Below, in pieces: positions 121 to 18,239 of a stretch of DNA of 18,239 nt (position 1 is its first letter; each line of letters opens with the position of its first letter). Position numbers and translations under genes: made by a program. The DNA is taken from positions 1 to 18,239 of the forward strand of contig DGRP01000005.1 of assembly GCA_002391065.1 (NCBI GenBank), written 5' to 3'. Source of the DNA: Ruminococcus sp. UBA4385 (lineage in GTDB: Bacteria; Bacillota_A; Clostridia; Oscillospirales; Ruminococcaceae). A model generated the notes under the pieces. It was not told where the DNA came from and did no database searches. It was given only the letters and a program-made list of their open reading frames with translations.

Positions 121-297
121 GTGAAAACATACAAATCTGCCTATCCCAAAAATATGCAAAACAGAGAACAATTGCAAACATCTTGTAAATCAGGGTTGTC
201 AAAACCCCGACTTCTTCCCCTATACAAGTGAGAAAAATTTTCAGCAGCCGTCTTGTAAAAACTGTGCGCCTGCAAAGGGTTGAAAGGAGTTGATCTA
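121..297 (+). promoter_or_regulatory. Leader region of the RepA-like gene with a weak candidate promoter
   Basis: No credible gene was seen in positions 1-297. A possible promoter is TTGTCA at 196-201 and TATACA at 221-226, but the 19-bp spacing is longer than ideal, so this is weak. A ribosome binding site, AAAGGAG at 283-289, precedes the TTG start at 298 by 8 nt. Confidence 0.3.
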
Positions 298-2108: not shown

Positions 2109-2145
2109 ATGGCAGAAAAGAATAACGAAACGAAGATCACAATGC
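2050..2145 (+). CDS. Possible 31-residue leader peptide overlapping the excisionase start
   Basis: An ATG at 2050 with AAAGGA 10 nt upstream (2034-2039) opens a 31-codon frame ending at TGA 2143-2145. It runs through the excisionase start in another frame. The peptide has no recognisable motif. Translating ribosomes could affect use of the excisionase start, whose own AAGGAG is 12 nt away. It may equally be chance. Confidence 0.2.
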
Positions 2146-2309
2146 TGACAATAAAAGAAGCCGCCGCTCTTGTGGAGGGTCTTACAGAGTACCGTGTGCG
2201 TCAGATGTGTAAGCAAGGGCAGCTGCCCTGCGTTATGGCAGGGAAGAAATATCTTATCAACAAAGCAAAGCTATTCAGCTACCTGAGAGGTGATGATTAT
2301 AAGAGTTGA
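2109..2309 (+). CDS. xis: Excisionase-family DNA-binding protein
   Basis: A 66-residue protein with the MerR/Xis-type winged-helix pattern: a TIKEAAALV opening helix, a recognition helix around EYRVRQMCKQGQLP, and a beta wing with GKKYLINKAKL. Such proteins bend DNA at att sites and direct the integrase towards excision. It lies 92 bp before the integrase start in the same direction, the usual arrangement. The ATG at 2109 was preferred over the in-frame ATG at 2043, whose AAAGGA is only 3 nt away. The AAGGAG at 2091-2096 is 12 nt from the chosen start, somewhat far, so initiation may be weak or coupled to the short upstream frame. Confidence 0.8.
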   Translation: MAEKNNETKITMLTIKEAAALVEGLTEYRVRQMCKQGQLPCVMAGKKYLINKAKLFSYLRGDDYKS

Positions 2310-2401
2310 TAACTTTCTATGTTGTCGGTGGAAACTTTTTCTGTTTCACTGGCTTTGCGGACTGCGTAGTGGTATCCTTGTGTGAGATCGGAGGTGATAT
2401 A

Positions 2402-3814: not shown

Positions 3815-3834
3815 TCCCCACCGACAAATATTTA

Positions 3835-3873
3835 CCGCCCGACAGAAATAATAGATCTGTCGGGCGGTTTTTT
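3835..3873 (+). terminator. Rho-independent terminator after integrase 1
   Basis: A perfect 12-bp stem pairs CCGCCCGACAGA (3835-3846) with TCTGTCGGGCGG (3856-3867) around a 9-nt loop, and six T residues follow. It ends the rightward transcript of element 1. Confidence 0.95.
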
Positions 3874-3947
3874 CTACATACAGCAATATAAATATTTGAA
3901 ACCTCCAAAGCCCCTATCAGCGCCGTTTGCCAAGAGCCAAAACCAAA

Positions 3948-3969
3948 AATAGTGCCCTAATAGTGCCCT
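3948..3969. repeat. Two tandem 11-bp direct repeats, candidate integrase arm sites
   Basis: AATAGTGCCCT is repeated head-to-tail without a gap at 3948-3958 and 3959-3969. It lies between the two integrase genes and about 85 bp from the tRNA-derived junction. Short direct repeats near att sites are often arm-type integrase binding sites; that role is inferred here. Confidence 0.5.
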
Positions 3970-3987
3970 GAAACCGAATTTTGACAC

Positions 3988-4026
3988 AAAAAATCCCACC
4001 GCCGAATTTTATCGGCAGTGGGATTT
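3988..4026 (-). terminator. Leftward terminator beyond the tRNA fragment
   Basis: The arms AAATCCCACCGCCGA (3991-4005) and TCGGCAGTGGGATTT (4012-4026) pair with one mismatch around a 6-nt loop. On the minus strand a run of T follows the stem. It lies 28 bp beyond the 3' end of the tRNA fragment, so it may be the original terminator of that tRNA. It may also stop transcripts from integrase 2. Confidence 0.8.
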
Positions 4027-4053
4027 CCCCGATTTTACGGGCTTTCATCAACG

Positions 4054-4081
4054 TGCGCCAGAAGGGACTCGAACCCCTTCC
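4054..4081 (-). other. tRNA 3'-end fragment marking an attachment site
   Basis: Read on the minus strand, this is the 3' part of a tRNA. A T-arm has stem AGGGG/CCCTT and the invariant loop TTCGAGT. The acceptor strand CTGGCGC and discriminator A (4054) follow, with no encoded CCA. No D-arm or anticodon arm lies upstream: the sequence from 4082 on is AT-rich and shows no cloverleaf. A truncated tRNA beside an integrase gene is the classic product of integration into a tRNA 3' end. The isotype cannot be told from this part. A second copy was not found in the window, so the far end of element 2 is not defined. Confidence 0.8.
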
Positions 4082-4116
4082 AAAATGCACATATTTGCCG
4101 TAAATACGCATATTTT

Positions 4117-5184
4117 TCAGGTCTGTGTGACCTCTGTGTGTGATTTTTCGCCGTCTGACGAAATGCTATTGATAAGCCCCGTGAAAAACGTGTCGATGAC
4201 CGTCTGATACTTCTGCTCGTTTTCGGCACTAGTATGGGTATAAACAGATTTCATAATATTATCCGTTGACCATCCGCCCAGCTTTTGGATATAATCTGAT
4301 GGAATGCCTAAATCGTTGAGCGTTGTAGCAAACTCGTGCCGCAGGGTATGAAATGTCATTTCAAGAACATATTCTTCTCTGAGCTTATTAAAACGTCTGC
4401 TTATAACATCATAGCTTAAAGGAACAATAAAATCAGTATCTTTGGTGTGCGGAACCGCCATTATAAGAGAGTGCAGATATTCAGGAAGTCTGTTTGTCCT
4501 TGTGCTCTGTTCAGTTTTAGTAACATCTCTGATGATATTCTTTCCGTCGATGTAGAGATTTACCCGATTTACGGATAAATATTTTCCATCCTCGGAAACA
4601 TCCCTAAACTGTAAGCCTCTGACTTCACTTATTCTGAGCGACAGCCACATTGCAAGTAAACACGGCAGCTCTATATCCGAACCGATAACTGCTTTGAGAA
4701 CCTGCTGTGCAGAAGGTATGCTCTTCTTTATTTTGCTTGCTGTCGGCAGCGTTATCCTTTTGAGATTGAGCTCGATATCCTGCATCGAAAGTGCACTTTT
4801 AAGCAATGCAAGTGCTGATTTTATCGACTTCCTTGAAAGCCGTTTTGCATCAAAATTGACTGCCCTTTGGATATCCGCCGCAGTAAGCTCGCTTAGCTTA
4901 GTATCACGAATAAGCTGAAGTCTTGCCTCTCTGATAGTCTTGTAGCCCTTGATAGTTGACGGCGAAAGAATGTTACTGCGAGAATCCATATAAGCACTTA
5001 TCGCCTTGTATACTGTCATCTCGCTCGGTGCTTTGTAGATGCCCTTTTTGTATTCATCCGCCATTTTTAAGGCTTGCCATTCTGTCTCGGCCGTGAAGGA
5101 CTTGACTATTCTTTTGCCTCTGTCATCATGCCCTGCAACGACCTGTACTCTGTAGTTTCCCGAAGGAAGTTGTTTTGCTTTCAT
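4117..5184 (-). CDS. int: Tyrosine integrase of element 2
   Basis: A 355-residue tyrosine recombinase, slightly short for the family. An N-terminal arm-binding strand region occupies about 1-50, the SAM-like core-binding domain about 55-140, and the catalytic domain about 160-335. Catalytic residues visible are Arg184 (LRISEVRG), Lys223 (TKTEQS), His279 and Arg282 (HTLRH), Trp305 replacing the second His (LGGWS), and the nucleophile Tyr315 (VYTH). The ATG at 5184 follows AAAGGGG with a 6-nt gap. The gene ends 36 bp from the tRNA fragment, as expected for the enzyme that uses that att site. It is only distantly related to the other integrase in the window and faces it. Confidence 0.93.
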   Translation of the reverse strand: MKAKQLPSGNYRVQVVAGHDDRGKRIVKSFTAETEWQALKMADEYKKGIYKAPSEMTVYKAISAYMDSRSNILSPSTIKGYKTIREARLQLIRDTKLSELTAADIQRAVNFDAKRLSRKSIKSALALLKSALSMQDIELNLKRITLPTASKIKKSIPSAQQVLKAVIGSDIELPCLLAMWLSLRISEVRGLQFRDVSEDGKYLSVNRVNLYIDGKNIIRDVTKTEQSTRTNRLPEYLHSLIMAVPHTKDTDFIVPLSYDVISRRFNKLREEYVLEMTFHTLRHEFATTLNDLGIPSDYIQKLGGWSTDNIMKSVYTHTSAENEQKYQTVIDTFFTGLINSISSDGEKSHTEVTQT

Positions 5185-5272
5185 GTATTACCCCTTTCTA
5201 AGAAAGGGCAAATGAAAGTAGCTTTTTCATACTTTCATTATACCACTATCCCGTTCTTTTGTAAACCCCATA

Positions 5273-5503
5273 TCACGAATTTAACAGATCATTCAGAGTC
5301 AAATTGTTTATGTATAAAAAGCTGTCGAGCCTGCCAAAGGTGACATTCTCGGCAGTTTTATCATATTCCTTTAGTGTCCTGACGTGTACGCCGAGGGCAT
5401 TCGCAAGCGCCTCGTCGCTAATTTCATTAAGCTGCTGAAAATATCGTATCTTGCACCATATCACCCGATAAAGCGGCAGTCTGTTTGTTGTCTTTCTATT
5501 CAA
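5273..5503 (-). CDS. Small XRE-like helix-turn-helix protein
   Basis: A 76-residue protein. Residues about 28-50 (SDEALANALGVHVRTLKEY) have the spacing of a helix-turn-helix. It begins with TTG at 5503, preceded by AGAGGAG with a 7-nt gap. It lies between integrase 2 and the divergent STAND gene, so a role as excisionase or as repressor of the divergent promoters is plausible. Neither can be settled from the sequence. Confidence 0.65.
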   Translation of the reverse strand: MNRKTTNRLPLYRVIWCKIRYFQQLNEISDEALANALGVHVRTLKEYDKTAENVTFGRLDSFLYINNLTLNDLLNS

Positions 5504-5556
5504 ATGTTTTCTCCTCTCTAAAATATATTAAGTCCAAATCTTCGTACAGTTAAACA

Positions 5557-5585
5557 TTGCAATCAAATCCTTTTTGTGATATACT
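5557..5585 (+). promoter_or_regulatory. Sigma-A-type promoter of the STAND ATPase gene
   Basis: TTGCAA at 5557-5562 and TATACT at 5580-5585 are 17 bp apart, with a TG extension just before the -10 box. The start codon at 5616 follows GGGAGGT with good spacing. The -35 box lies within the palindrome ATTGCAAT, and the divergent HTH gene starts 54 bp to the left, so this interval may also hold an operator. Confidence 0.7.
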
Positions 5586-5615
5586 ATTTATAACGCTAAT
5601 TATGGGAGGTGTACT

Positions 5616-7910
5616 ATGAGCCGCTTTGATTTCTGCTCAATTATGCAGGTGATTTCTCAATATATTTCCGACGCCAAAGCCCCAAGCCAAACTGAGCTTG
5701 CCTATCTTCTTTTCAATCAGTTTGCTTTGAAGCATGATGATTTCGACTTCGACCAAGGCAGAGTCAACCGCTGGCTAAAGGGCAAGGACGCTGTCAGCCC
5801 TACTATCACACGTTTCTATTTGCAGGACGGTTATGCCGAATATCTTGCCGCTGACCTTGAAGAAAAGATATTCCCTTTGATGACTGATGTGAGCAAAGCC
5901 GTACAAGAAATATATTATTTGCTGATGAATGACATCGGCATTTCCGATACCAAGAAAAACGAATTAACCGAGTTATACCCTCCACAGAATCCCACCGATA
6001 CAGCCGACTTTATCTCCGTTGTTCTTCTGTTCGGCATGGAGCGCAAATTTCAAAAGCGTGACACCAAACTGCTCACAAGCGGAATGCTTTCACCCGTTGC
6101 CGCTGACATCATAATGTCGGGCGCCGTACCTGCTCCATGAAAGCATTTCTGTGGTCGTGACAATGAAATATCTGAACTGCATACTTTACTTGAAAATCAC
6201 AGTAAGATTTTCATAACCGGCATCGCAGGCATAGGCAAAAGCGAGTTTGTCAAAGCCTACGCTAAAATGCACCGAAAGGACTACACCAACATTCTGTTTT
6301 TCACCTACCCCGGGAGCCTGCAAGCGCTGATCGAGGACATAGATTTTGCCAACGATCTCCCGAGCGATGATAACACCACCCGTTTCAAAAAGCACAACCG
6401 CTTTCTTCGCTCACTTAAACCCGACACGCTGCTTATAATCGACAATTTTAACACCACCGCTGCTAACGAGCCACAGCTCGATGTTTTAATGAAATACGGC
6501 TGCAAAATTCTCTTTACAACTCGCAGCAGATTTGAGCTCAGCTATATCTACGAGCTGAACGAGATCACAGACCTTGAAAGCCTGATATCGCTCACAGCAT
6601 ATTTCTATACCAATACTCAAAATCAACGACCGACAGTAGAGAGCATAATTGAAACCGTCCACCGCCATACACTCTCGGTTGAACTCTCCGCAAGGCTTTT
6701 GCAGACTGGTATCCTTGAACCGAGCGAGATACTCGACAAGTTGATTGAAAGTGCAGCCGCCCCCGTATCGTCTGACAAAATATCAATCACCAAAGACGGA
6801 CACACAAAAAAGGCGACATATCACAACCACATCAAAACACTTTTATCGCTGTTTTCCTTGAATGAAGAAATGCAAGCGGTAATGCGTTATGCTGCTTTCA
6901 TTCCTGCCAGTGGCATTCGTGCCCGTCTTTTTGCAAAGCTGATAAGCCTTGAAAATATGGACGCTGTCAACGGCCTTACCGAGCTGGGCTTTATCCAAAA
7001 TCCCGAAATGGACAAGATCACGCTGCACCCTCTTGTGCAGGAAACTATCGTTGCCGACCTGCACCCCGACACCGAGAATTGCCGACCACTGCTTGACAAT
7101 ATCCACCGAATCTGCTTGCAGCATGGTGTTGACATTCCTTATTATTCTGTGTTGTTTGCAATCACGGAAAATATAGCGGATAAAATAGTGATTTGTGATA
7201 AATCCGATTATCTGTTTTTTATCGAGAACTGCTTTGCTTAAATGGAAAAATACAGATACGCAAGCGGTATGAAAAAACTTGTTTCTGTGATGACTGATTT
7301 GCTTTCCGATGACACCCTCGGCACACAAAATGACCGTGCCTTGCTGCTCAATAATCAAGCCTCCTGTGAGGGTCTGCTGAACGGCAATTATCGAAAAGCG
7401 ATAGAGCTTGAAAATCGTGCAATCAATATGTGTGAGCCGATAAGCAATCCCTTGCTTGCCACAAATCTGCACATGAATCTCGGCTATCTTTATCAAGCAA
7501 ACAGTCAGCTTGCTCTTGCAAAACAAAGCATGGAAAAAGCTATGCAGATAATTGCAGAAGTAAACCAACCCACGCATGATGTAATTATCATGTCACGCAA
7601 CTACGCCCGACTACTTGCAGAAACAGGCGATGTCAAAAGAGCAATCACAGCACTCCAAAAGTGCGCCGAGCTTGTCAAGGCGACAAACTCCGAACTGACC
7701 TCCGACTATGCCGACATTCTATTCGACATAGCCGTTATCACTTTGCAGTTAAGCGGCATTCAGACCGCCGAGCCGTATTTTATCAAGGCTTTCAAGATAT
7801 ATCGTGAGGTGCTTTCCGATGATGATCTGCGAGAGAAAGCCGAGCTTGCAGCAAAGTATTTGGGGCGTGCAGGCATAACGCAAATGCCGAAATATCTTGC
7901 GTTAGAATAG
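5616..7910 (+). pseudogene. HTH/NB-ARC/TPR STAND ATPase with two in-frame stop codons
   Basis: Three consecutive open frames (5616-6140, 6141-7241, 7242-7910) lie in one reading frame. Together they read as one 764-residue STAND protein. An HTH-like N-terminus (about 1-85) is followed by an NB-ARC domain with Walker A GIAGIGKS (codons 202-209), Walker B LLIIDN (272-277) and the RNBS-B-like TTRSR (301-305). A winged-helix region and TPR-type helices (543-764) complete it. The frame is cut by TGA at codon 175 (6138-6140) and TAA at codon 542 (7239-7241). After the TGA no ATG, GTG or TTG occurs in frame before the P-loop; the first ATG (6267) lies past Walker A. After the TAA an ATG follows directly but has no clear ribosome binding site. 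STAND proteins act as ligand-triggered switches in regulation or antiphage defence. As written the gene cannot make the full protein; nonsense decay, readthrough or sequence error are the options. Confidence 0.85.
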
Positions 7911-7914
7911 CATT

Positions 7915-8829
7915 TTATCTGCGGAGTTTTTTCTTAGGTATTGTTTTTGCAGGTGCAGTATTTTTTATCGTCATAGCCTTTTGCTGCAAAGCATATTCAA
8001 TTCCTTTTCTTATGTATTCCTCACCCAGCCTGCCGGCACGAATCGAGATTGGCTTGCCATTCTTGTCAAGGTACATCGGGTGGCGGTAAGAAACCGTATT
8101 CCCTGCGACCCTGCACTCAACTCCGTATTCAGACTGAATAAAATGAATAACATCATTAAAGGTTTTGTTGTCCGGCTTGCCGACAGCAATCTTGATTATC
8201 TGCCGCAGATCGTCTTTGTAGCTCTGCTCACCACGCTTATGTATTTGCGTTTCGCCAAAGGTCAGCTTATCTTTTTGACGTGAAATGTCGTGATTGTAAA
8301 AGCTCTCACGCACCGAATTTGTAAAGCCGTATTCAAGGCATTTCTCCCCGAAATACTCCGACATATCATACAAATCCTTTTGGCTTCTACGGTAAGACTT
8401 GCCCGTAACCATATTGCAGTTACTAATCAGAAAATGCACATGAACGTGCGGAGTATCGGTATGCACCGCAAACAGCACCTCAAAACCCATGCTGTGTATG
8501 AACCGCTCAGCAAAGTCCTCTGCAATTTCAAAGGCTTGCTTGTAACTCACATTGTCATCGGGGTGAAAAGAAATTGACATTTTATGAGCGAGTATCGTGT
8601 TTCCCTTGTGTTTTGAATAACTCTTGCCGTTAAGCTTGCGGGTGACAAGAATGTTATTCGCAAAGTTATCCCGATCACAGCCGAGTGCGGTGTAAAGCCC
8701 CTCGGCTGTTTTCTTTATGCCTTGCTCGATCTGCTGCTTTTGCCGACCGAGCATATATGCCGCAGCGCTTTTCAGTGCCCCGACCGACTTGCAGGGCTTG
8801 TAGCTGACATTGACATTTCCAAACGGCAT
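7915..8829 (-). CDS. MOBP-type relaxase (mobilization nickase)
   Basis: A 304-residue relaxase. It carries the metal-binding motif HTDTPHVHVHF (His123, His128, His130, His132) typical of MOBP/VirD2-like enzymes, which nick oriT and stay bound to the 5' end through a tyrosine. Tyr25 in AAAYML is a candidate nucleophile. The protein is short for the family and lacks a helicase or primase domain, which fits a mobilizable rather than self-transmissible element. Its ATG overlaps the stop of the MobC frame (TAATG), with GGAGGGG just upstream, so it is translated from the same operon. Its 3' end meets the convergent STAND gene with a 4-bp gap and no obvious terminator between them. Confidence 0.88.
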   Translation of the reverse strand: MPFGNVNVSYKPCKSVGALKSAAAYMLGRQKQQIEQGIKKTAEGLYTALGCDRDNFANNILVTRKLNGKSYSKHKGNTILAHKMSISFHPDDNVSYKQAFEIAEDFAERFIHSMGFEVLFAVHTDTPHVHVHFLISNCNMVTGKSYRRSQKDLYDMSEYFGEKCLEYGFTNSVRESFYNHDISRQKDKLTFGETQIHKRGEQSYKDDLRQIIKIAVGKPDNKTFNDVIHFIQSEYGVECRVAGNTVSYRHPMYLDKNGKPISIRAGRLGEEYIRKGIEYALQQKAMTIKNTAPAKTIPKKKLRR

Positions 8830-9166
8830 TACCCCTCCACAAGCGGCTTGTCAAGGAAAGCCGACAGCCTGTCCATCGTTGTGCAAAAACTTTTCTGATA
8901 ATACCCGATTGCGAACTGCGCCTTTTCGCTCTGAAAAGTGTTAGCAAGATATGCAACTTGATTCAGATTCACGCCGATCTTCCGCAGCTCGTGCATTATC
9001 GCCTTTAGTTCATCATCAAAGCGGTACACCTTTATATTAGAGCCACGCACCAGCTTCATAAAAAATCTGTCTTGCTCAGACCGCTTGCCTTACGCTTCTT
9101 TTCAAAAGTAGCAAGCTCTTTCTCCGTAAGCCTTATGTTGAATTGTCTATCCCTGTTTCTATTCAT
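8829..9166 (-). CDS. mobC: MobC-like relaxosome accessory protein, split at a -1 slippery heptamer
   Basis: Two overlapping frames together make a normal-sized MobC. The first (ATG at 9166, good GGAGG upstream) encodes 36 residues and ends at TGA 9056-9058. The second (ATG at 9059) encodes 76 residues and ends at 8829. The frames meet at GAT TTT TTA TGA, where T TTT TTA is a canonical -1 slippery heptamer; slippage would give a 112-residue fusion. The first piece holds the beta strand (QFNIRLTE) and first helix of a ribbon-helix-helix domain, and the second helix spans the joint. The 76-residue piece alone should therefore not fold as an RHH. It has no ribosome binding site of its own, though the ATGA overlap allows re-initiation. 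MobC proteins help the relaxase open oriT. A lost T in the T6 run, by mutation or sequencing error, is the plain alternative. Confidence 0.75.
9059..9065 (-). promoter_or_regulatory. Candidate -1 ribosomal frameshift site T TTT TTA
   Basis: On the minus strand the first MobC frame reads GAT TTT TTA TGA. The heptamer fits X XXY YYZ exactly in the zero-frame phase, with the stop codon directly after it. After slippage the next codon is the ATG of the second frame. I see no strong stimulatory hairpin downstream and no close upstream SD-like stimulator. Confidence 0.5.
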
Positions 9167-9175
9167 TTACCCTCC

Positions 9176-9565
9176 TTACCCTCCGACGAAATCAAAGTCG
9201 ATATCGTCGGCAGAAACGTTATTCTCATTTGTATTTGTTATATTTATCGTAGGTGCAGTTGCGTTATACGACATTACCATTTTAGAAAAGCAAGCCGCAA
9301 GAAAACTCGGCAGCACCTTCTCAACCGCTGATTCCACCGCCGCGACGATCTGCTCTACAAAGCGTTCCTCACGCTCTCTTGTTTCAAGGTATGGGTCATC
9401 TTTTATACGATAATAATTCTTGAAATACTCCGTCACAGCGACTGCAACCGCTTGGCTGTACGACTTGAATTTCTCCTTATCCATTCCTTGAAGATAATCC
9501 CATGCCTGTCTATCAAGAGGCTTATCTAGGTTGAAGCGCAGGGTAGTGCATTTGATATTGCTCAT
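9176..9565 (-). CDS. Putative ParR-type partner of the ParM-like protein
   Basis: A 129-residue protein encoded between the ParM-like gene and mobC. It starts 1 nt after the stop of the ParM-like gene (TAATATG) behind GGAGGGG, so the two are translated together. The N-terminus (strand TTLRFNL, then helices to about 50) could be a ribbon-helix-helix DNA-binding fold. The C-terminus is Asn-rich and ends in an acidic and aromatic tail (DDIDFDFVGG), reminiscent of ParR tails that contact ParM filaments. I do not recognise a specific family by sequence; the ParR call rests on position, size and the tail. Confidence 0.55.
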   Translation of the reverse strand: MSNIKCTTLRFNLDKPLDRQAWDYLQGMDKEKFKSYSQAVAVAVTEYFKNYYRIKDDPYLETREREERFVEQIVAAVESAVEKVLPSFLAACFSKMVMSYNATAPTINITNTNENNVSADDIDFDFVGG

Positions 9566-9566
9566 A

Positions 9567-10487
9567 TTACCCCTCCTTTTTCAGCTGTTCGTAGGCAATA
9601 GTCTCATAGCCCTTCGCCGCTGCGCAGATGTCATCAATGATCGTCACGCGGCTCATGTCGTACTCGCCGAAGTTCTTGATAATGCAGCCACCGTCGCCCG
9701 CAACGTAAAGCCTCATCAGCTCGGGGTCGTACTCATACTTTGCAAGCGTCTGGAACAGCTCGCCGCAGTATTTTTTGATCGTTTCCGTAATACAGTTTAG
9801 ATACTTCTCGGAAATATCCGCCTTGCCTGTGCGAATGACCTGCTCGATAATGCTCTCGTCTATCTTTGTGCAAAACCTGTCCATGACCGCATTTTTCGCT
9901 GCGATCACGCACTGATTTACGCCCAACTTTTCGGTGTAGCATTTGCTCTCGATCGGGCGCTTGTTGTTTATGAACATGATGTTCATCGTGCCGTTTCCGA
10001 TGTCAGCAAGCAAGTTCACACCCGTCAGCTGCGAAAGCCTATCCACCACGGCAGGATACCCCTGCGGATAGATCGAACAGCCGACGATGTGCAGCTTGTA
10101 TGCCACATCATTAAATGTGAATTTGACGCTTTTGTTCCTCATCATATACCTGCGGAAATCCTCACGTTGGGTCTTTACCCACGTCAGCGGCAGACCAGCT
10201 GCGATATGTACATTAGCCTCTGTTGTAAAAGTGCAGCGCAGTTCCTGTGCAATAGCTGCAAGTGTCAGCAAGTAGAAATCCTCGTCCATACTCTTGTCAG
10301 CAATGAATGCCTTGTGACCCTCACCGATACGGTAATACATTCCGTTGTATATCAGAATGTTACCGTCAAAGGTTGGCGCGGTCTTATACGCTGTAATGCC
10401 CGTCGGCATTATCGTATTCGCCGTCTTGATGTTTCCATAGCCGTGATCCACGCCTATGATCTTCGTTCCGTTTTTCAATTCTCTCAT
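9567..10487 (-). CDS. parM: ParM/StbA-like actin-family ATPase
   Basis: A 306-residue actin-fold ATPase. The phosphate 1 loop is VDHGYGNIK (Asp14), the phosphate 2 loop LLADIGNGT (Asp162), and the adenosine motif VAGDGG (about 262-267). ParM proteins polymerise into filaments that push plasmid copies apart with ParR bound at a centromere. This is the first gene of a tight leftward operon with the ParR-like, MobC and relaxase genes. The ATG at 10487 follows GGAGGG with 6 nt between. In an integrative element it may stabilise the excised circle or serve the transfer process; which one cannot be told. Confidence 0.85.
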   Translation of the reverse strand: MRELKNGTKIIGVDHGYGNIKTANTIMPTGITAYKTAPTFDGNILIYNGMYYRIGEGHKAFIADKSMDEDFYLLTLAAIAQELRCTFTTEANVHIAAGLPLTWVKTQREDFRRYMMRNKSVKFTFNDVAYKLHIVGCSIYPQGYPAVVDRLSQLTGVNLLADIGNGTMNIMFINNKRPIESKCYTEKLGVNQCVIAAKNAVMDRFCTKIDESIIEQVIRTGKADISEKYLNCITETIKKYCGELFQTLAKYEYDPELMRLYVAGDGGCIIKNFGEYDMSRVTIIDDICAAAKGYETIAYEQLKKEG

Positions 10488-10954: not shown

Positions 10955-10990
10955 AAAAAGGCTTCTGCTGGGGTGTGTGCAGAAGCCTTT
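10955..10990 (-). terminator. Terminator ending the TIR/SPFH cluster
   Basis: A perfect 12-bp stem pairs AAAGGCTTCTGC (10957-10968) with GCAGAAGCCTTT (10979-10990) around a 10-nt loop. Read leftward, a run of five T overlaps the end of the stem. It lies about 36 bp after the last leftward ORF. Rightward reading gives TTTCTT, so weak bidirectional use is possible. Confidence 0.8.
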
Positions 10991-11025
10991 CTTGATATCA
11001 TTTAGTATGAATTCATATAACTATA

Positions 11026-11190
11026 TCAGCTAAATACAACAGTCTTATCATTTGAAAAAACATCAAAAGACTTGTTGATTTCTCCAAGCAGTTCATTAAA
11101 TCCAGTATTGAGAGTATCATTAATATATGCCTCTCTTGCTTTAGGCTTGTTAATAAGACTCCATTTTAATTGTCTATAAGAATTAGCCAT
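11026..11190 (-). CDS. 54-residue hypothetical protein at the end of the TIR cluster
   Basis: It begins MANSYRQLKW and starts 8 bp after the stop of the third TIR gene in the same direction. No proper ribosome binding site precedes the ATG, so it would depend on translational coupling. The composition is ordinary for a soluble, charged protein, with no membrane segment. I do not recognise the family. It could be a true small member of the system or the displaced tail of a longer homologue. Confidence 0.45.
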   Translation of the reverse strand: MANSYRQLKWSLINKPKAREAYINDTLNTGFNELLGEINKSFDVFSNDKTVVFS

Positions 11191-11198
11191 TGAGGATA

Positions 11199-12571
11199 CT
11201 AATCGTCAGATTCATCTGAAATGATATCAGCAGAATTAAAAACGATCGGAAGAATATTATCAAATCGATGCTCAAGCTCATCTAAATCTAATACCCTTTT
11301 ATGACTGTCTTTCTCGGATGTTTTATCTTCCTCTTTTTTCTTTAATAGTGCTTGAATATCATCCTCGGCTTTTGATAAAAATTCTTTTTGCTCTTCATTT
11401 CCAAATCTAATAACTTTAGAATAGTTTTTACTATCCTTAATTGAGTGGTCAAGTGATGATAATGATTCTTTAGTAGTACACTGATTTTCTATCATCAGTT
11501 TATAAAGATATGCATCAGCATTCATAGGATCATGATTTAATACTTGCTCACAAAAATCATCGGCACGGTCAAACTCACCATCCTCAAGAAACAGCTCTAT
11601 TCTTTTCAGAAGAGGATCTGTATCAAATTGTGTTGTATTATTAGCCATTGTATATGGTGTCGTAAGAATAACTGTCTGTTCAGTATGCAATACTTTCCTT
11701 ATCCCACGTATAACATCGTTTATAAACCCGATCTTACTCATATCCTGGGCCTGCAAATGAGAAAACTCCTCAGGCAGATCATAAGCATCCATATCTTTAT
11801 AGCAAGAAATCAGAAGCTTTGAATAATCGTTTTTTACGATATTTAAGTATCGGTTCCATTCGTTTTTGACCCATATCGCATTGAAGTATTCAGGCTTTGA
11901 CCCTATAACAAGCATTACCTTTGAAGAATTAAGAGCTGCAAAAATATAGGGCTCATATTCCTGACCAAGCTTGTCTTCAAGAGTTATTGCTGAGTAGAAT
12001 ACCTTGAACCCTTCCTGTGTCAGTTGATGATATATTTCATTTGCAATAACACTGTCTTTTGTTCGCTTCCCATTTTCGTCAGATTCCTTGTAGCAAAGGA
12101 AGACATCAAATGGATCCTCCTTATGAACTATAGACAAAATGTTCTTCTGCAGCTTGTCAATAAATAATGCTTCTCGTTCATAAATAGTTTTCTGAGAGTT
12201 GTCGGCATACACTAACGCTGCTTGATAATCTATATCAGACATTATAGATTCAAGTTGAGTACGATGGCAGGTAGGTCTCTTTTTTTAGTAATGGGATCTT
12301 CGACATATTCGATGCCATACTTACATAGTACTATACCCCAGTAAGCTTCAGCTTCATTCGGATTAGCAGATACTATCTTTTCGTATAGATCCTGAGCTTT
12401 ATCAAACTCACTTTTCATTCGGAGATTATTTGCCCTGTTAAAGTTGTTTGCCAGAATGTCATCGTGTTTTTTAGGTATAGTCTGATTGGTTCCGCAGTAC
12501 TAGCATTCACAGACTGTCATTCCGTCAGTGACCTCCAACGATCCACCGCACATTTTGCATTTTAAGATCAT
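11199..12571 (-). pseudogene. Third zinc-ribbon TIR/TPR protein, broken by a TAG stop and a frameshift
   Basis: The frame opens at ATG 12571, 4 bp after the membrane-protein gene, with KCKMCGGSLEVTDGMTVCEC, which closely matches the intact paralogue at 15205-16857. It is cut after 23 codons by TAG (12500-12502) where the paralogue has a Glu codon. The same frame continues with YCGTNQTIP and AEAYWG to about 12280. There, at a T7 run (12280-12286), homology moves to another frame, which continues through PTCHRTQLES into the 347-residue frame starting at ATG 12242. That part keeps a complete TIR domain (DVFLCYKESDENGKRTKDS, and Glu in IWVKNEW) and TPR helices with a charged C-terminus. The ATG at 12242 has no ribosome binding site. 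Probably a pseudogene; a zinc-ribbon-free TIR protein made by re-initiation is less likely but possible. Confidence 0.8.
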
Positions 12572-12575
12572 CTTC

Positions 12576-13262
12576 TCACCTTCTCTTACTACCCCTGCAA
12601 GCTGTATTTCTGTCGTCCAAAGCAGATTGGGTCTGAATAATAAGCTGGCTGATATCCTCGCTGCCTGACAGCACTGCCTTTTCAAGCTCTGCAAGTACGG
12701 AGCCCAGTTTCTGCTCCTCGGCAGCTATCGCAGGTGAGCTAACAGGGTCGCTGAATCTGATGTTCTCAGCGAGAGCTTCAAGCTGTTTTTTCAAGGAAGC
12801 ATCGCCTGTTTTATTGGTGAGCTTCTCCGACCTTGATCTGAGGTCCATCATAAGTGATGTATCGGGCTTTACAGCTGCTTCGATTTTCTCGACCTCTTCT
12901 CTTGCGGCTGCCGCAGAGACACTGCAAGCCAAAGCTGCACCAAGAACTATAATGCAAAGCACAAGTGACAGCCACGCAGGTATCGGAACATACCCCAGCG
13001 GAATCAGTGCAAGGCTTATTGTTGTCTGTATACCAAGATACATATAGCCTACCCGCATTATTGGGAAGCCCAGCACCTTGCTCTTCAGATCATTTTTGCC
13101 GTCAAATGCGACCTTGAATATCGGGAACTGGAGAGCTATCGCAATTACTTCAGCGGCATAAGCTATCCAGAAGGACGCTCCCTTGGGGAATGGAATGATA
13201 AATGCATAGGCACTGAATACTACAAACACTATTGCAAGGACTGCTATCGCTTTTTTACGCAT
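12576..13262 (-). CDS. Four-helix membrane protein with a cytoplasmic coiled-coil tail
   Basis: About 228 residues. Four hydrophobic segments (about 3-22, 29-50, 67-90, 94-118) are followed by a charged, coiled-coil-like C-terminal half of about 105 residues. The ATG at 13262 is preferred because AGGAG lies about 8 nt upstream; the in-frame ATG at 13268 is almost on top of it. The gene begins 2 bp after the SPFH gene stop and ends 4 bp before the third TIR gene, so all three are co-translated. I do not recognise the family. A role as membrane anchor for the SPFH assembly or TIR proteins is inferred from position only. Confidence 0.8.
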   Translation of the reverse strand: MRKKAIAVLAIVFVVFSAYAFIIPFPKGASFWIAYAAEVIAIALQFPIFKVAFDGKNDLKSKVLGFPIMRVGYMYLGIQTTISLALIPLGYVPIPAWLSLVLCIIVLGAALACSVSAAAAREEVEKIEAAVKPDTSLMMDLRSRSEKLTNKTGDASLKKQLEALAENIRFSDPVSSPAIAAEEQKLGSVLAELEKAVLSGSEDISQLIIQTQSALDDRNTACRGSKRR

Positions 13263-13264
13263 GG

Positions 13265-15109
13265 TCATTCTCCTCTCTTAGTTCCGCAGTCGGGGCAGAA
13301 GCCGCTGCTTATTCCTTTATGACCGCAGTTAGGGCAGTCCCATGTTGAGGGTTCTGCTGGCTTTGGGTTGCCGCAGTTTGGACAGAACTTAGACGTTATA
13401 TCCTTAGTACCGCAGTTCGGGCATATCCAGCCTGTGGGCTTTTCTGGCTTGGGAGAGCCGCAGTCGGGACAGAACTTGCTTGTTATTCCTTTTGTTCCGC
13501 AGTTGGGACAATCCCATCTGTCTGCCGACAAAGGTGCAGGCTTTGGTTTTCCGCAGTCAGGGCAGAACTTTGATGTGATGTTTTTCTGACCGCATTCACA
13601 GTTCCATGTATCACCCGTTGCTGAGATAGTCTCACCGATAGCCGTGCCCATGCCCTGTGCATTCTGGGCAACAGGGTTCAGAGCTTCCTTAGTCATACCC
13701 ATAACGCTACCCATAGCTCCGAGAGTTACTCCAAGACCTGCGATGTCACCAAATCCGCCGCCTGCTCCGCCGCTCTTGCCGATGCCTTCCATAGCCGCAA
13801 GGCCGACCTCACGGGCTGTCTCCTGCTGATAGGTGTAGCCCTTCATACGCATTTCGGCAGCCTCAGCCTCAGCTTTGAGCTTGTATGCCTCGGCCTCGCC
13901 CTGTGCACCAATGACTTTCATCTTTGCAGCTGTCTGAGCTTCAACAGTCTGACGCTCTGCACTTGCTTCGGCCTCAGCCTTTCTGATCTGCTCTTCACGG
14001 ACTTTGAGGAACAGGTCTGCGTGCTGCTGTTTGAGCCTCTTGAAGTTCGGGTCATCGTCGGGCGTTACTATTGTTGTGACGAAAAACTCGGGCATAAAGA
14101 GACCGTAATCGGCAAGGTTCTCGTTTATGGTGATGCATAATTGGTTTGAGATAGTTTCAAGGTGCTCATCAACTTCAAGAATATTGATATTGTTTTCCTT
14201 GATTATCCTTGCAAGGTGGCTTTTCACCTTAGTCATTATCATAGCACGGAACTTTGCTATAGTCGGCTTCATTCCGTAAACGCCGTCAATGACATCGGCC
14301 TGCGTAAACTCGCTTGCGGTGCCGACAAGCTTGATAAGAAGCTTCCTCGAGTCCTCGACACGCAGGTTGAACTGACCGCTTGCACCTATCTCGATAGGCA
14401 GGCCTGTTGCCGTGTCAAAGAAACGCACCTTGCTGTCAGTGCCCCATTTAATACCCATCTGAGTGGTCTTGTTGATAAAGTAGACCTCGCTGTGGAAAAT
14501 CGTATCAGCGTTGGTTGGGAGCTTATACAGGTTTTCAAGTATCGGAAGATTTTGTGTTGCAAGAGTGTAGCGTCCTGCTCCGAACAGATCAAGTGCCTGA
14601 CCATCGCGGAAGAACACAGCCTCCTGCGATTCATGAACGATAAGCTGCGAACCGAGATTGAAATCCTCGATCGGGTGCTTCCAAACAAAGGTCTGGTTGT
14701 CGCCTTCGTATTTGATGACGCTGGCAAGGCCTTTGTTTTTCTCGGCTTCTTTAGCAACAGCCTTCTGTACATCAATTTCGGTATCGCAGAGCGGGCATGT
14801 GTATGTATCCGCATTCTTATCCGCACTCAGCTCACAGGAGCAGCTTGGACAATGGAACTGAACAAGTGCAGCCATATTGTTGTATGTATTGATTTTCTCA
14901 TGACATACGGGACACTTAGCATCACTGCCCTTAGACTGGTCAAAAATGACCATATTTCCACAGTGAGGGCAAAGCCTTGAACTCATTTTTTCAGTTTTAA
15001 CATCAATAACATGACCGCAGACACAATCAACTTTTTTCTTTGCAAAAAAGCCTGATTTGGCCTCAGTATACCGCCCGCACTTCGGGCATTCTATTACGAA
15101 TTTGGACAT
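13265..15109 (-). CDS. SPFH/YdjI-type (virion core-like) protein with zinc ribbons at both ends
   Basis: A 614-residue protein. The N-terminus (about 1-110) has three pairs of CxxC or CxC knuckles (near 8/11 with 29/31, 47/50 with 66/69, 87/90 with 105/108), as in zinc ribbons. An SPFH/band-7 domain spans about 145-365, followed by an Ala/Glu-rich helix (about 370-435) typical of SPFH oligomers and a Gly-rich stretch (445-475). Four tandem CxxC or CxC ribbon units (502-611) with SKFCPDCG-type repeats end it. This layout resembles the COG4260/YdjI group; YdjI in Bacillus subtilis belongs to a PspA-linked membrane-stress operon. The start is ATG 15109, 9 nt after AAGGAG. The in-frame TTG at 15118 abuts the same site. 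It sits between TIR genes in one leftward cluster, so it may be a scaffold at the membrane that holds or senses for the TIR proteins (inference). Confidence 0.85.
   Translation of the reverse strand: MSKFVIECPKCGRYTEAKSGFFAKKKVDCVCGHVIDVKTEKMSSRLCPHCGNMVIFDQSKGSDAKCPVCHEKINTYNNMAALVQFHCPSCSCELSADKNADTYTCPLCDTEIDVQKAVAKEAEKNKGLASVIKYEGDNQTFVWKHPIEDFNLGSQLIVHESQEAVFFRDGQALDLFGAGRYTLATQNLPILENLYKLPTNADTIFHSEVYFINKTTQMGIKWGTDSKVRFFDTATGLPIEIGASGQFNLRVEDSRKLLIKLVGTASEFTQADVIDGVYGMKPTIAKFRAMIMTKVKSHLARIIKENNINILEVDEHLETISNQLCITINENLADYGLFMPEFFVTTIVTPDDDPNFKRLKQQHADLFLKVREEQIRKAEAEASAERQTVEAQTAAKMKVIGAQGEAEAYKLKAEAEAAEMRMKGYTYQQETAREVGLAAMEGIGKSGGAGGGFGDIAGLGVTLGAMGSVMGMTKEALNPVAQNAQGMGTAIGETISATGDTWNCECGQKNITSKFCPDCGKPKPAPLSADRWDCPNCGTKGITSKFCPDCGSPKPEKPTGWICPNCGTKDITSKFCPNCGNPKPAEPSTWDCPNCGHKGISSGFCPDCGTKRGE
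13277..13606 (-). repeat. Four tandem zinc-ribbon repeats in the SPFH gene
   Basis: On the plus strand CCGCAGT followed by (C/T)-rich variants of GGGCAGAA recurs about seven times, about every 40 bp. It encodes alternating WxCPNCG and FCPDCG knuckles. The first unit is divergent (NCECGQ). The pattern reflects protein repeats, not a DNA element. Confidence 0.85.
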
Positions 15110-15204
15110 AGGTATCAACTCCTTGTTGTCTTATTGTTTTGCGTTCAGGTTTTATGATCTTTCATCTTTTTACGTAGCATTTTCAATATTGACACACTAT
15201 CAGA

Positions 15205-16857
15205 TTAGCGAAGAATCATATAAAAAAGAATGGGTAATAGTATAACACACAAAAACGCTATACTTGAATATACTGTGGATTTAATCATTAGATTATTTAT
15301 CTTTTCTTGACACTTTTCTATCATTTCAGCAGAGTCTTTATAGTCTTTCAATTCCTTAAACTCTTCCGCTGCTTTTTGATAATCAGTTTCCTCTACTGCT
15401 GAATTCATATGTTGCACGGCTTTGTTATACCTATCTTCTATAGCCCCAGCTTCGCAAGCCTTTAATCTTTCAGCAGAATCTTTATAGTCTTTAAGACTCT
15501 TAAATTCTTCTGCTGCTTTTTGATAATCACCCTTTTCCATGCGAACGACGGCGGTATAATACAGATCATTTTTGATCTCATTATCTCTATTTTTACGTTT
15601 TCTGTATTCTGTTAAAACTTTAGCCATACGGCTAATCAAATGCTTTTTATCTGCAGTTTCTTTGATTTTTAGAAGCTCTTCTTTATATTGTTCATCTGCA
15701 TATCTAATTGCTTTTTCAAAATCCTTTGAATTACTTAAATCGATACACACATTGTTAATATCATTAGTACCCAGCTTTGCCATAAGCAGATAGAAATAAG
15801 CCTGAGCGCACTCAGGGTCCTGGTCGAGGACTCTGTTGCAGTAGTCTTTTGCATTATCCCAGTCGCCGTCTTCGAGGAACAGAGCTGCACGTTTAAGCAG
15901 TGGAGCAGTTGAAGCATTCGCTGTCTGGACAACCGTCTCCTTGATGACTACCTGCTTAGGCTCTTCCTTGGCGATCTTGGTGATGCCCCTGATAAGATCC
16001 TGCATAGCACCAAGCTTATTCATATCCTGTGACTGCTTGGTAGTCAGCATTGCAGGCAGATCTTCAGGGTCAATATTCGAATAGCAAGGAATAAGCACCT
16101 TTGAGGTGTCCTTCTGAGCAAGCCTTGAAAATCTTGCCCACTCATTCTTCACCCATACAGACTCCACATATTCAAGCTTGGTCGTGACAACAAGCATCAC
16201 CTTTGCAGATTTCAAAGCCGCAAAGATATATGGTTCATAGTCAACTCCAAGTTTGTCTTCCAGAGTGATTCGGGAAAAGAACACTTTCAGCCCATTTTGC
16301 GTCAGCTTATCGTATATCTCCTGTGCTAGAACGCTGTCTGGAGTTCTCTCTTTGTTTTCGTCTGTTTCCTTGTAGCAGATGAAGACGTCATAAGGCTTTT
16401 CATTTTTTACCACAGCAAGGATTTTCTGCTGCAAAACATCAATAGCTTTTGCTTCTTTCTCATAGACAGTCTTTGCTACACTATCAGCATTCTTGACAGC
16501 AGACAAGTAGTCGGAGTCGTTGAGAATAGATTCATAGGCCGTTCTGTGACAGGTCGGTATTTTGTTTCCTGTCAACGGATCCTCTACATACTCAATACCA
16601 TACTTGCACAGACACAAACCCCAATAAGCCTCGGCTTCTGTGGGAAATTCCGAGACTATATTCTGGTATATACCTTCTGCACCATCGAAATCGCATTTGA
16701 ATCTCAGGCGGTGTGCTCTGTTGAACAAGTTGATCTTCTTTTCGTTATCAAAGGCAGGGAGAGTCTGTTCTGTTCCGCAGTACTCACATTCACAGACTGT
16801 CATTCCGTCTGTGACTTCTAACGAACCTCCGCACATTTTGCACTTGAACACTGGCAT
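15205..16857 (-). CDS. Zinc ribbon-TIR-TPR protein with a C-terminal membrane anchor
   Basis: A 550-residue protein. The N-terminal zinc ribbon uses Cys6/Cys9 and Cys24/Cys27. A helical, TPR-like linker (about 42-130, with AEAYWG) leads to a TIR domain at about 156-290. That domain opens with YDVFICYKETDENKERTPDS and carries Glu239 in VWVKNEW, the position of the catalytic glutamate in NAD-cleaving TIRs. TPR helices occur at about 318-355. Two copies of a DYQKAAEEF/LKDYKDSAE repeat (441-468, 489-516) follow, then one transmembrane helix at 529-549. The ATG at 16857 has AAAGGA 9 nt upstream. The gene starts 17 bp after the neighbouring TIR gene. The TIR faces the cytoplasm if the C-terminal anchor is a tail anchor. 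NADase activity and a defence role are inferred from family knowledge. Confidence 0.88.
   Translation of the reverse strand: MPVFKCKMCGGSLEVTDGMTVCECEYCGTEQTLPAFDNEKKINLFNRAHRLRFKCDFDGAEGIYQNIVSEFPTEAEAYWGLCLCKYGIEYVEDPLTGNKIPTCHRTAYESILNDSDYLSAVKNADSVAKTVYEKEAKAIDVLQQKILAVVKNEKPYDVFICYKETDENKERTPDSVLAQEIYDKLTQNGLKVFFSRITLEDKLGVDYEPYIFAALKSAKVMLVVTTKLEYVESVWVKNEWARFSRLAQKDTSKVLIPCYSNIDPEDLPAMLTTKQSQDMNKLGAMQDLIRGITKIAKEEPKQVVIKETVVQTANASTAPLLKRAALFLEDGDWDNAKDYCNRVLDQDPECAQAYFYLLMAKLGTNDINNVCIDLSNSKDFEKAIRYADEQYKEELLKIKETADKKHLISRMAKVLTEYRKRKNRDNEIKNDLYYTAVVRMEKGDYQKAAEEFKSLKDYKDSAERLKACEAGAIEDRYNKAVQHMNSAVEETDYQKAAEEFKELKDYKDSAEMIEKCQEKINNLMIKSTVYSSIAFLCVILLPILFYMILR
15310..15537 (-). repeat. 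Internal TPR/SEL1-like duplication in the TIR gene
   Basis: Two 84-bp units at 15454-15537 and 15310-15393 encode nearly the same 28-residue block, sharing DYQKAAEEFK and LKDYKDSAE. The nucleotide similarity points to a fairly recent internal duplication. Confidence 0.8.
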
Positions 16858-16874
16858 GATGATTAATCCTTTCG

Positions 16875-18239
16875 TTATTTAAGTATATCCTCATATTCTT
16901 CTTTTAGATCTTTCTCTTTTTTTGCAAGATCAGACAATAAGTATTCGATTTCTTGCTTTCTTTTCTTTGAGAAAACTCCTAAATGCTTTAATTCTTCATA
17001 AAGGTTCTTTCTATCGCTGGATATTTCTTTTATTTTTCTTTCGTACTCTTCATTTCTAGCTATTTTTTTCAATCTAGTTTTAGCTCTGCTTTTTAGTTCT
17101 TCAGAGTTTTTATATGTTCCTGTTTCTTCCAAGATTGAGATTGCACTATTAAGTGATTCAACATCATCATTTCTTAGTAGTTGATTTGCTTTTTGATATT
17201 TACTTTCATTGTTTTTTACAGCATCAAATCTTTCGTTTTTTAACTTTTTGATTTGAGTTAGATCCATATAATCTTCAAGATCCTTGAAGCGCTGTTCTAC
17301 ATAATCCAAATCGTTAGTATAATATGTAGTTTGAACCAGCCTCAAAAGAATGTTGTACATATTTTCAGTACACTTTGGAATCATTTCATTCTTTTTTTCA
17401 CAAAGCTCAAGATTTTCAAACTTTGTTCTTATATCTTTATATTCATCATATTTGGAAGCCGAGTTATATGCATCTGTTGTCAAATTAAATAAAGAACTGT
17501 TAAGAAAAGTTTTGATTCTTACTTTGTAGTCATCATCAGCGAATCTATATGCCTTTTTGTAGTTGTTATTATTACTATAATCAACGGCAATCTCACCCAG
17601 TTCTTCTTCAGAGGATACTTCAAGATGAGCCTGTAGCTTTCCTATATAAGCTCTGGCTTCCTCGACATCTTCATTAAGAATCTGTTCAAAGAAATTGTCC
17701 GCTGCATCCCAATCCTTGTCTTCAAGTGCGAGCTTTCCCCTTTTGATAAGGTTTTCTATATTGGACGAATTGGTTTTCACTACAGTTTCTTTTACAGCTT
17801 CCTGTTTTGGCTCTTCCTTAGCAATCTTTGTGATACCTCTGATAAGATCCTGCATAAAGCCGAGCTTTGACATATCTTGTGCCTGGAACATTGACAAAGC
17901 GTCGGGCAGATCGTAAGGGTCCATATCCTTGTATGCAGGGATAAGAGTAAGGCTTCTGTCCTCGTTCATAAGCATAAGATAACGGCTCCACTCGTTCTTG
18001 ACCCACACAGCGTTGAAGTATTCGGGCTTAGTTCCCACAACTACCATCACCTTCGCTGAATTCAGGGCAGCAAAAATGTAGGGCTCATACTCTGAACCCA
18101 GCTTTGATTCAAGCGTTATTCTCGAGAAGAACACCTTAAAGCCCTCACGCTCCAGCTGATAATAAAGCTCCTGAGCGAGAACGCTGTCCTGAGTACGCTT
18201 GCCGTTTTCATCAGTCTCCTTGTAGCAGATGAAAACGTC
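16875..18239 (-). CDS. TIR-TPR-coiled-coil protein, 5' end outside the window
   Basis: The frame is open to the window edge, so the N-terminus is missing; by analogy with its neighbour it may carry a zinc ribbon and helical linker. The 454 residues present begin inside the TIR domain at DVFICYKETDENGKRTQDS. They keep the Glu of VWVKNEW, followed by PYDLPDALS and the conserved LIRGITKIAKEEPKQ linker. TPR-like helices follow (KLALEDKDWDAADNFFEQIL), then a long charged helical tail ending in a Lys/Glu-rich coiled coil. Unlike its neighbour it has no C-terminal membrane helix. A GTG at 18134 is internal and is not the start. It is transcribed with the TIR gene 17 bp downstream. Confidence 0.85.
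   Translation of the reverse strand, partial: DVFICYKETDENGKRTQDSVLAQELYYQLEREGFKVFFSRITLESKLGSEYEPYIFAALNSAKVMVVVGTKPEYFNAVWVKNEWSRYLMLMNEDRSLTLIPAYKDMDPYDLPDALSMFQAQDMSKLGFMQDLIRGITKIAKEEPKQEAVKETVVKTNSSNIENLIKRGKLALEDKDWDAADNFFEQILNEDVEEARAYIGKLQAHLEVSSEEELGEIAVDYSNNNNYKKAYRFADDDYKVRIKTFLNSSLFNLTTDAYNSASKYDEYKDIRTKFENLELCEKKNEMIPKCTENMYNILLRLVQTTYYTNDLDYVEQRFKDLEDYMDLTQIKKLKNERFDAVKNNESKYQKANQLLRNDDVESLNSAISILEETGTYKNSEELKSRAKTRLKKIARNEEYERKIKEISSDRKNLYEELKHLGVFSKKRKQEIEYLLSDLAKKEKDLKEEYEDILK

Follow-up and report, generated by a model that had tools for sequence, protein, structure and literature searches.

Organization of the gene cluster

We analyzed a stretch of 18,239 nucleotides from Ruminococcus sp. 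UBA4385 (GenBank assembly GCA_002391065.1, contig DGRP01000005.1; hereafter the window, meaning the whole stretch at its full length), which ends in a minus-strand cluster encoding TIR-domain proteins headed by a zinc ribbon (ZnR-TIR), an SPFH protein, and a protein with four transmembrane (TM) segments that we call TM4. By sequence comparison, SPFH, TM4, and a "client" with an N-terminal zinc ribbon make up a real, conserved, modular, and strongly associated gene set, which may form a membrane hub for TIR effectors. The genes follow one another as TIR1, TIR2, SPFH, TM4, TIR3, and an open reading frame (ORF) of 54 residues, and the gaps of 17, 95, 2, 4, and 8 bp hold with starts at 16857, 15109, 13262, 12571, and 11190; the leftward cluster described in the first-pass annotation, which was made from the letters of the window alone, is where it was placed. 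A hairpin with a U run closes the cluster, again as described there [Table 1]; it is unlisted by the consensus terminator scanner, the loop limit of which is 8.

All three TIR frames exceed the cut-off of the Pfam TIR_2 model (28 bits) with 47.2, 50.9, and 42.6 bits, and TIR1 and TIR2 are open. The count of three TIR paralogues made earlier stands to this extent, and had missed that the frame of TIR3 is interrupted twice, by an in-frame stop in its ribbon and by a break close to 12240, leaving three pieces (12500-12694, 12242-12418, and 11199-12242). The stretch 11199-12571 has 1373 bases, which is no multiple of three, and this together with the stop and the frame break makes TIR3 a broken gene; the break would be either decay or an assembly error. 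A recoded stop was set aside because the identical codon terminates TIR3. The broken gene sits directly behind TM4. The 54-residue ORF exists as a frame and is doubtful as a gene, with no tblastn match (E ≤ 1e-3) among 80 related loci. Rfam gave no match at gathering score anywhere in the window.

Table 1. Positions of the cluster genes, their main parts, and two adjoining genes in the window
Feature	Coordinates	Strand	Remarks
TIR1: TIR domain and tail, N-terminal ribbon lost to window edge	16875..18239	-	Frame open to edge; TIR_2 47.2 bits; WVKNEW motif
TIR2, 550 aa: zinc ribbon, TPR-like linker, TIR, TPR, one predicted C-terminal TM helix	15205..16857	-	Intact
TIR2 N-terminal zinc ribbon (Cys6, Cys9, Cys24, Cys27)	16777..16842	-	
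TIR2 predicted catalytic Glu239 (WVKNEW)	16141..16143	-	
SPFH (Band_7_1) protein, 614 aa, ribbons at both ends	13265..15109	-	
SPFH N-terminal zinc ribbons	14786..15088	-	Five CxxC motifs within first 130 residues; alignment
SPFH C-terminal zinc-ribbon repeats	13286..13600	-	Pfam DZR / Zn_Ribbon matches; alignment
TM4: four-TM protein with helical C-terminal domain, 228 aa	12576..13262	-	Without Pfam model
TIR3: broken ZnR-TIR gene	11199..12571	-	In-frame stop in ribbon, later frame break; TIR_2 42.6 bits (last piece)
54-residue ORF, doubtful gene	11026..11190	-	
Intrinsic terminator-like hairpin, end of cluster	10955..10992	-	Fold -20.7 kcal/mol, z -5.9
ParM-like actin	9567..10487	-	ALP_N 47.8 bits
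MobP/TraI-like relaxase	7915..8829	-	NCBIfam TraI_MobP_relax 37.7 bits, under cut-off 250

Linkage and co-occurrence of SPFH, TM4, and ribbon clients

Using TM4 alone as bait on genome contigs, we kept the best 80 of 129 relatives as loci, many of which are cut by contig ends, and ran SPFH, TIR, and ribbon profiles on all of their frames. SPFH was found in 77 of the 80 loci (the exceptions being L010, L034, and L053) and TIR in 48. With the window included, SPFH and TM4 lie on one strand in 78/78 loci, separated by 64 bp or less in 73 and by 212 to 6086 bp in the other five. Our counted set consisted of 47 loci (window included) in which SPFH is present and the flanks reach 3 kb or more in both directions, the other 34 loci being left uncounted. 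A ribbon client (N-terminal ribbon, same strand, within 6 kb) is encoded in 46 of these 47 loci, the exception being L063; the client is a TIR protein in 31 loci and of another kind only in 15. The titles of the metagenome-assembled genomes (MAGs) of some relatives name Chloroflexi, Kiritimatiellaeota, and others; since MAG titles outside Clostridia may be binning errors, the system can be placed safely only in Clostridia.

We then estimated co-occurrence in two samples, namely, the order of Ruminococcus flavefaciens YAD2003 (L014, G001; 147 genomes), which we take to be Oscillospirales, and the order of Lachnospiraceae bacterium UBA2864 (L070, G011; 146 genomes), presumably Lachnospirales. 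The ZnR-TIR profile (E ≤ 1e-30) matched in 16/147 and 13/146 genomes, a few of the matches covering the TIR part only; TM4 (E ≤ 1e-8) matched in 16 and 14 genomes, and SPFH (E ≤ 1e-30) in 27 and 19, of which 16 (E ≤ 1e-80) and 13 (E ≤ 1e-70) were strong by limits set after the lists were seen. For the tests, the pre-selected genomes were removed (G001 from the first sample, G011 and G005 from the second), leaving N = 146 and N = 144. By Fisher tests, which count genomes as independent although they are related, TM4 is found in 13/15 (p 8e-15) and 9/11 (p 2e-10) of the TIR genomes and strong SPFH in 14/15 (p 2e-17) and 9/11 (p 5e-11); at the looser limit of E ≤ 1e-30, 15/16 TIR genomes of the first sample are among the 27 SPFH genomes (p 2e-12). 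TIR places lie within 10 kb of SPFH in 19/34 cases in the first sample and 13/22 in the second. The first-pass annotation had staked its proposal in advance on SPFH and TIR genes not being rare neighbors, and SPFH, TM4, and ZnR-TIR are strongly linked both across loci and in the two genome samples.

Conceivably, two common families could have been drawn together loosely or by chance, as SPFH proteins are very common: at least 8000 matches were obtained, against 135 homologues of TM4, the rare part of the set, among 5.8 billion proteins searched. This explanation is already contradicted by co-occurrence in two samples (p 2e-10 to 2e-17), by adjacency, and by the shared strand, and we regard it as virtually untenable.

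The SPFH protein and TM4

The SPFH protein matches Band_7_1 with 134.1 bits (cut-off 24) and has ribbon matches at both ends, which bears out its earlier description. No TM segment is predicted in 72/75 members of its family (3/75 have one), and a Band_7_1 domain with a ribbon and without a TM helix is what would be expected of a YdjI-type protein. A search of the SPFH sequence against PDB gave no match. Its C-terminal ribbons also exceed the cut-off of the Pfam Cas12f1-like TNB model, which we take as ribbon similarity and not as a Cas gene. The four-TM description of TM4 agrees with the 3 to 5 TM segments that a simple hydropathy count gives in 75 family members. TM4 has no Pfam match at E ≤ 0.1; in its structural model (predicted local distance difference test, pLDDT, 89.7), the helices at the N-terminal end are long and the C-terminal part is helical as well, and the model has no PDB match at E ≤ 0.001. 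In genomes G062 and G094 (L143, L144), TM4 is longer, continuing into TPR-like repeats and, as judged by eye, a DUF6273-like tail, the tail type of many TIR clients.

The distances of SPFH and TM4 correlate across 75 loci (Spearman 0.525, Mantel p 0.002), the coefficient being 0.396 in the 44 TIR loci. In these 44 loci, with one TIR protein taken per locus, the distances of the TIR heads track neither SPFH (0.069, p 0.18) nor TM4 (0.056, p 0.18). In contrast to the TIR sequence, the class of the client goes largely with the lineage of SPFH, with only 4 changes on a quick SPFH tree. A TIR client accompanies an SPFH protein with N-terminal ribbons in 24/25 counted loci, versus 7/22 loci without such ribbons (Fisher p 4e-6). 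A rule tying the N-terminal SPFH ribbons to TIR was nevertheless dropped, as there were only 6 independent pairs, about 2 of them in its favor and 0.2 against it, too few to support a causal link once relatedness is considered. Many of the loci with a short SPFH protein (∼390 aa) have the gene of a ribbon protein of another subtype behind TM4, often with a conserved C-terminal CYVATAVYGS stretch.

TIR clients with a constant head and a varied tail

The heads of the ZnR-TIR proteins follow one plan: a ribbon with Cys 6/9/24/27, a TPR-like linker with a PTCHR motif, and a TIR domain from residue 156 with Glu239 in the WVKNEW motif. The four ribbon Cys, Trp235, and Glu239 are all kept in 91/91 distinct heads covering those columns (91 when rows are compared over residues 6-239 only, and 94 otherwise). 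The model of TIR2 residues 1-310 has a mean pLDDT of 89.3, and its top Foldseek matches are the TIR domains of SARM1 and AbTir; with phmmer, Glu239 is aligned to the Glu of WCLMEL in the flax L7/L6 TIR. We take SARM1 and AbTir to be NADases and the flax Glu to be catalytic. From these alignments, the heads are predicted to carry the catalytic Glu expected on helix C of TIR NADases, and the ZnR-TIR proteins may cleave nicotinamide adenine dinucleotide (NAD).

The tails, in turn, are diverse. We surveyed 56 proteins out of 72 ORFs with ribbon and TIR, the remainder being cut, fragmentary, or omitted for size. All 56 match TIR_2 (E ≤ 0.001), and their Pfam domains include TPR_2 (43 proteins), DUF6273 (14), RCC1 (8), BspA-type LRR (2), ankyrin (1), and TM2 (1); a TM segment is predicted in the tail of 36/56 and in the head of none. 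Among 12 same-locus paralogue pairs, the identities of head and tail are 0.93 and 0.42 in L048, 0.91 and 0.34 in L014, and 0.85 and 0.33 in L047, with a reversed pair in L054 (head 0.53, tail 0.69). Head and tail parts thus appear to have been exchanged, in both directions.

It could be argued that TIR serves assembly here without acting as an enzyme, and that in such a scaffold the work is done by the varied tails. The hub also has ribbon proteins without TIR as neighbors, and these resemble the TIR clients in their tail types (of 28 such proteins, 3 have RCC1 and 2 have DUF6273), so that tail modules are common to TIR and non-TIR clients and TIR need not be the shared working part. The catalytic Glu kept in every head and the structural matches to the NADases SARM1 and AbTir speak against such a role, and we consider it very improbable.

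Mobile and neighboring genes

Beyond the hairpin, the ParM-like and relaxase-like genes lie on the same strand as the cluster, and two tyrosine recombinases and a RepA/DnaB-like gene are found further left; together with a MobC-like gene, these occupy window 280-10487. From this gene content, the cluster looks like the neighbor of a mobilizable element or its remains. In fetched cluster flanks, the RepA-like protein of the window has relatives that are 63% identical in L001 and 46% in L050, and L038 encodes a relative of the window's ParM with 49% identity. Sequence clustering and inspection by eye showed resolvase-type genes in 13 loci besides the window, and integrase-type genes in 10. At window 5616-7910, three successive plus-strand frames resemble a larger ATPase/TPR-type protein in pieces, for which there was no informative PADLOC match.

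A plasmid origin was rejected, as the whole window has no near plasmid DNA match, TIR has 0 matches in 72,556 plasmid records, and TM4 has no plasmid match by tblastn. SPFH matches 21 plasmid records, and only that of Butyrivibrio fibrisolvens plasmid pNP21 (L081, 20.5 kb) extends over 80% of the query. At 6700-10053 of pNP21, the SPFH gene, a TM4-like frame (recognized by eye and missed by tblastn), and a non-TIR ribbon client stand in a row, the genes being annotated as SPFH and hypothetical proteins. A phage or viral origin was likewise rejected: there is no TIR match in phage records and no relative of TM4, SPFH, or TIR in viral contigs, where single-protein queries reach close relatives only. 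SPFH has 6 partial, weak matches in phage records (best coverage 62%).

The mobile genes invite the explanation that the cluster is an addiction or conflict module, in which TIR toxins restrained by the SPFH-TM4 hub punish the loss of the element or the entry of a rival. The relaxase-, ParM-, and integrase-like genes adjoining the cluster in the window, the integrase- or resolvase-type genes in part of the loci, and the core with a non-TIR client on pNP21 would fit this, whereas the distance at which TIR clients can sit from the hub and the failure of TIR to match any of the plasmid records do not. We judge such a module to be quite improbable.

Scanned for signs of defence islands without a control set, 130 neighbor proteins gave a mixed picture. 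Small HEPN-like proteins with RxxxxH occur in or beside the cluster at L011:3277-3711, L016:11991-12527, L002:2742-3215, and L022:6561-7196; the first two match Pfam HEPN pEK499_p136 (that of L016 above the cut-off), and the last two were recognized by eye. Between two TIR genes, L068:2036-3040 has weak AbiH and SIR2_2 matches, both below cut-off. A mad3 match in L020 groups with ABC-type ATPases, and MADS was not counted among the neighbors.

The cluster may instead serve membrane stress and not defence, with SPFH-TM4 monitoring the envelope and the TIR proteins making ADP-ribose-type signals or slowing metabolism under stress. In support, the closest characterized SPFH-ribbon platform, YdjGHI-PspA, is described as a sigma-W envelope-stress operon (PMC8581546), 15/47 counted loci have a non-TIR ribbon client only, and the neighbors are mixed. 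A stress role sits poorly with the patchy distribution of TIR (16/147 and 13/146 genomes) and the strongly varied tails. Against it also stand L001, L038, and L050, where the cluster has relatives of mobile genes of the window no more than a few kb away, and PspA, which is present in 6/14 core genomes searched and never on the contig of the cluster. On balance, membrane stress appears unlikely.

A proposed membrane hub with docked TIR clients

Building on the gene set, its co-occurrence, the conserved residues, and the exchange of tails, we propose that TM4 would anchor an SPFH oligomer, itself devoid of TM helices, and that proteins with an N-terminal zinc ribbon would be its clients, docking on this hub probably through their ribbons. 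The clients in the window would be TIR proteins with a constant head and an exchangeable tail (TPR, DUF6273, RCC1, LRR, ankyrin, or TM). A trigger reaching a tail, or a membrane disturbance sensed by the hub, would make the TIR domains cluster and cleave NAD, and the ensuing growth arrest or death would limit the phage or protect kin. Being the variable part, and made up largely of repeat domains, the tails resemble sensors. TIR enzymes switch on when brought together, so that an SPFH ring could be what switches them on. We regard this reading as a whole as evenly poised between right and wrong, with phage defence as the outcome being its weakest step.

Several observations weigh against it. 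In the two samples, 15/34 and 9/22 TIR places are either separated from SPFH by more than 10 kb or on a different contig, some of them at contig ends, and three TIR genomes (G056, G259, and G181) have no core match. The few changes of client class imply that the loci are far from independent, and the L054 pair runs opposite to the pattern of constant head and varied tail. PADLOC and NCBIfam matches are weak, many neighbors look ordinary (e.g., AraC, cellulase, ABC), and the searches of phage records with TIR and of viral contigs with TM4, SPFH, and TIR were negative, as given above.

Of the 24 far TIR places, we retrieved 17, in 16 regions, and found no SPFH or TM4 around the TIR genes of these regions even at loose limits; 5/16 regions break off at the TIR gene or next to it because the contig stops there, and a linked core could be missing from them, and 11/16 have at least 2.8 kb on both sides. 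The SPFH-TM4 core is present in 9/12 genomes with far TIR places (G005 being left out, as its far places share the contig of the cluster, at 10-12 kb from SPFH), when about 1/10 of genomes overall have the core. As far TIR places are mostly in genomes that hold the core, this suggests that ribbon clients depend on the SPFH-TM4 core and can work in trans. In the small genome G014 (1.6 Mb), seven ZnR-TIR matches are scattered over contigs (e.g., L187-L190) along with a single SPFH-TM4 pair.

More tentatively, and with distinctly less confidence than an even chance, the cluster may be an immune platform of one hub and many sensors. Here, a single SPFH-TM4 hub would serve several linked and unlinked ribbon-tagged TIR proteins, the repeat tails of which (RCC1, LRR, DUF6273, ankyrin, TPR) would recognize different invaders or kinds of damage; SPFH oligomers would take the role of the NLR wheel or inflammasome, and non-TIR ribbon clients would plug in too. 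If so, a flotillin-like membrane ring would be a clustering device for TIR domains with exchangeable sensor tails and trans-acting clients, membrane-microdomain proteins would be linked to NAD-based immunity in gut Clostridia, and a role would be found for a zinc-ribbon TIR family that the defence libraries used match weakly. It would also supply a rule for finding clients, which is to look for ribbon-tagged proteins in SPFH-TM4 genomes.

Comparison with known systems

In agreement with the first-pass annotation, which knew of no named defence system with these genes, we found no description of the SPFH, TM4, and ZnR-TIR gene set among the papers listed in searches of full-text literature that has most subscription journals outside its scope. 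PMC7159879 names SPFH once, in its reference list; RCC1 occurs with TIR in an amoeba (PMC13142454); a phage SPFH gene is reported (PMC13239085); Band-7, ribbons, and PspA are also treated in PMC11237479 and PMC9239133; and "Tir" in PMC11237479 denotes the CesT/Tir chaperone and not a Toll/IL-1 receptor domain.

YdjGHI-PspA comes closest to SPFH-TM4 among characterized SPFH-ribbon platforms. The SPFH protein YdjI of B. subtilis has a Zn finger at its C terminus, lacks a membrane anchor, requires the membrane proteins YdjG and YdjH, and recruits PspA to the membrane (PMC8581546). The operon pspA-ydjGHI and the window cluster resemble each other in an SPFH protein without a TM helix, a C-terminal ribbon, membrane partners, and a client recruited to the membrane (PMC8581546), and they differ in that the client in the window is ZnR-TIR and not PspA. 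TM4, with neither a ribbon nor a Pfam match, is set beside YdjG/YdjH by role and not by sequence comparison. Identity with the PspA operon was rejected on the absence of PspA from the cluster contig in the 14 core genomes. The lack of a TM segment in most SPFH proteins, TM4 as the putative anchor, and PspA being off the cluster contig would together make this a YdjI-like hub with a TIR client.

Like TIR NADase antiphage proteins such as SpbK of ICEBs1 and ThsB of Thoeris, the TIR proteins of the window have a TIR domain with the predicted catalytic Glu, and they also lie near mobile genes; they differ in the N-terminal ribbon, the close link with SPFH-TM4, and the exchangeable tails. Membership in Thoeris was rejected, since there is no ThsA-type partner (SIR2-SLOG or Macro) among the cluster genes and the profile scores are weak (e.g., 28.3 bits for NCBIfam ThcB4, cut-off 220). 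The PADLOC candidate PDC-S66, a 282-position model undescribed in PADLOC, matches weakly over the TIR region in 25/29 heads (best E 7e-8).

TIR-NLR and STAND sensors combine a constant effector head with changing repeat domains. ZnR-TIR proteins share this design, and their repeat domains could likewise recognize triggers. An NB-ARC or NACHT ATPase is found neither in the TIR proteins of the window nor among the 25 of 35 families shown for the 56 relatives; in contrast to TIR-NLR and STAND sensors, the oligomerization of ZnR-TIR would come from SPFH.

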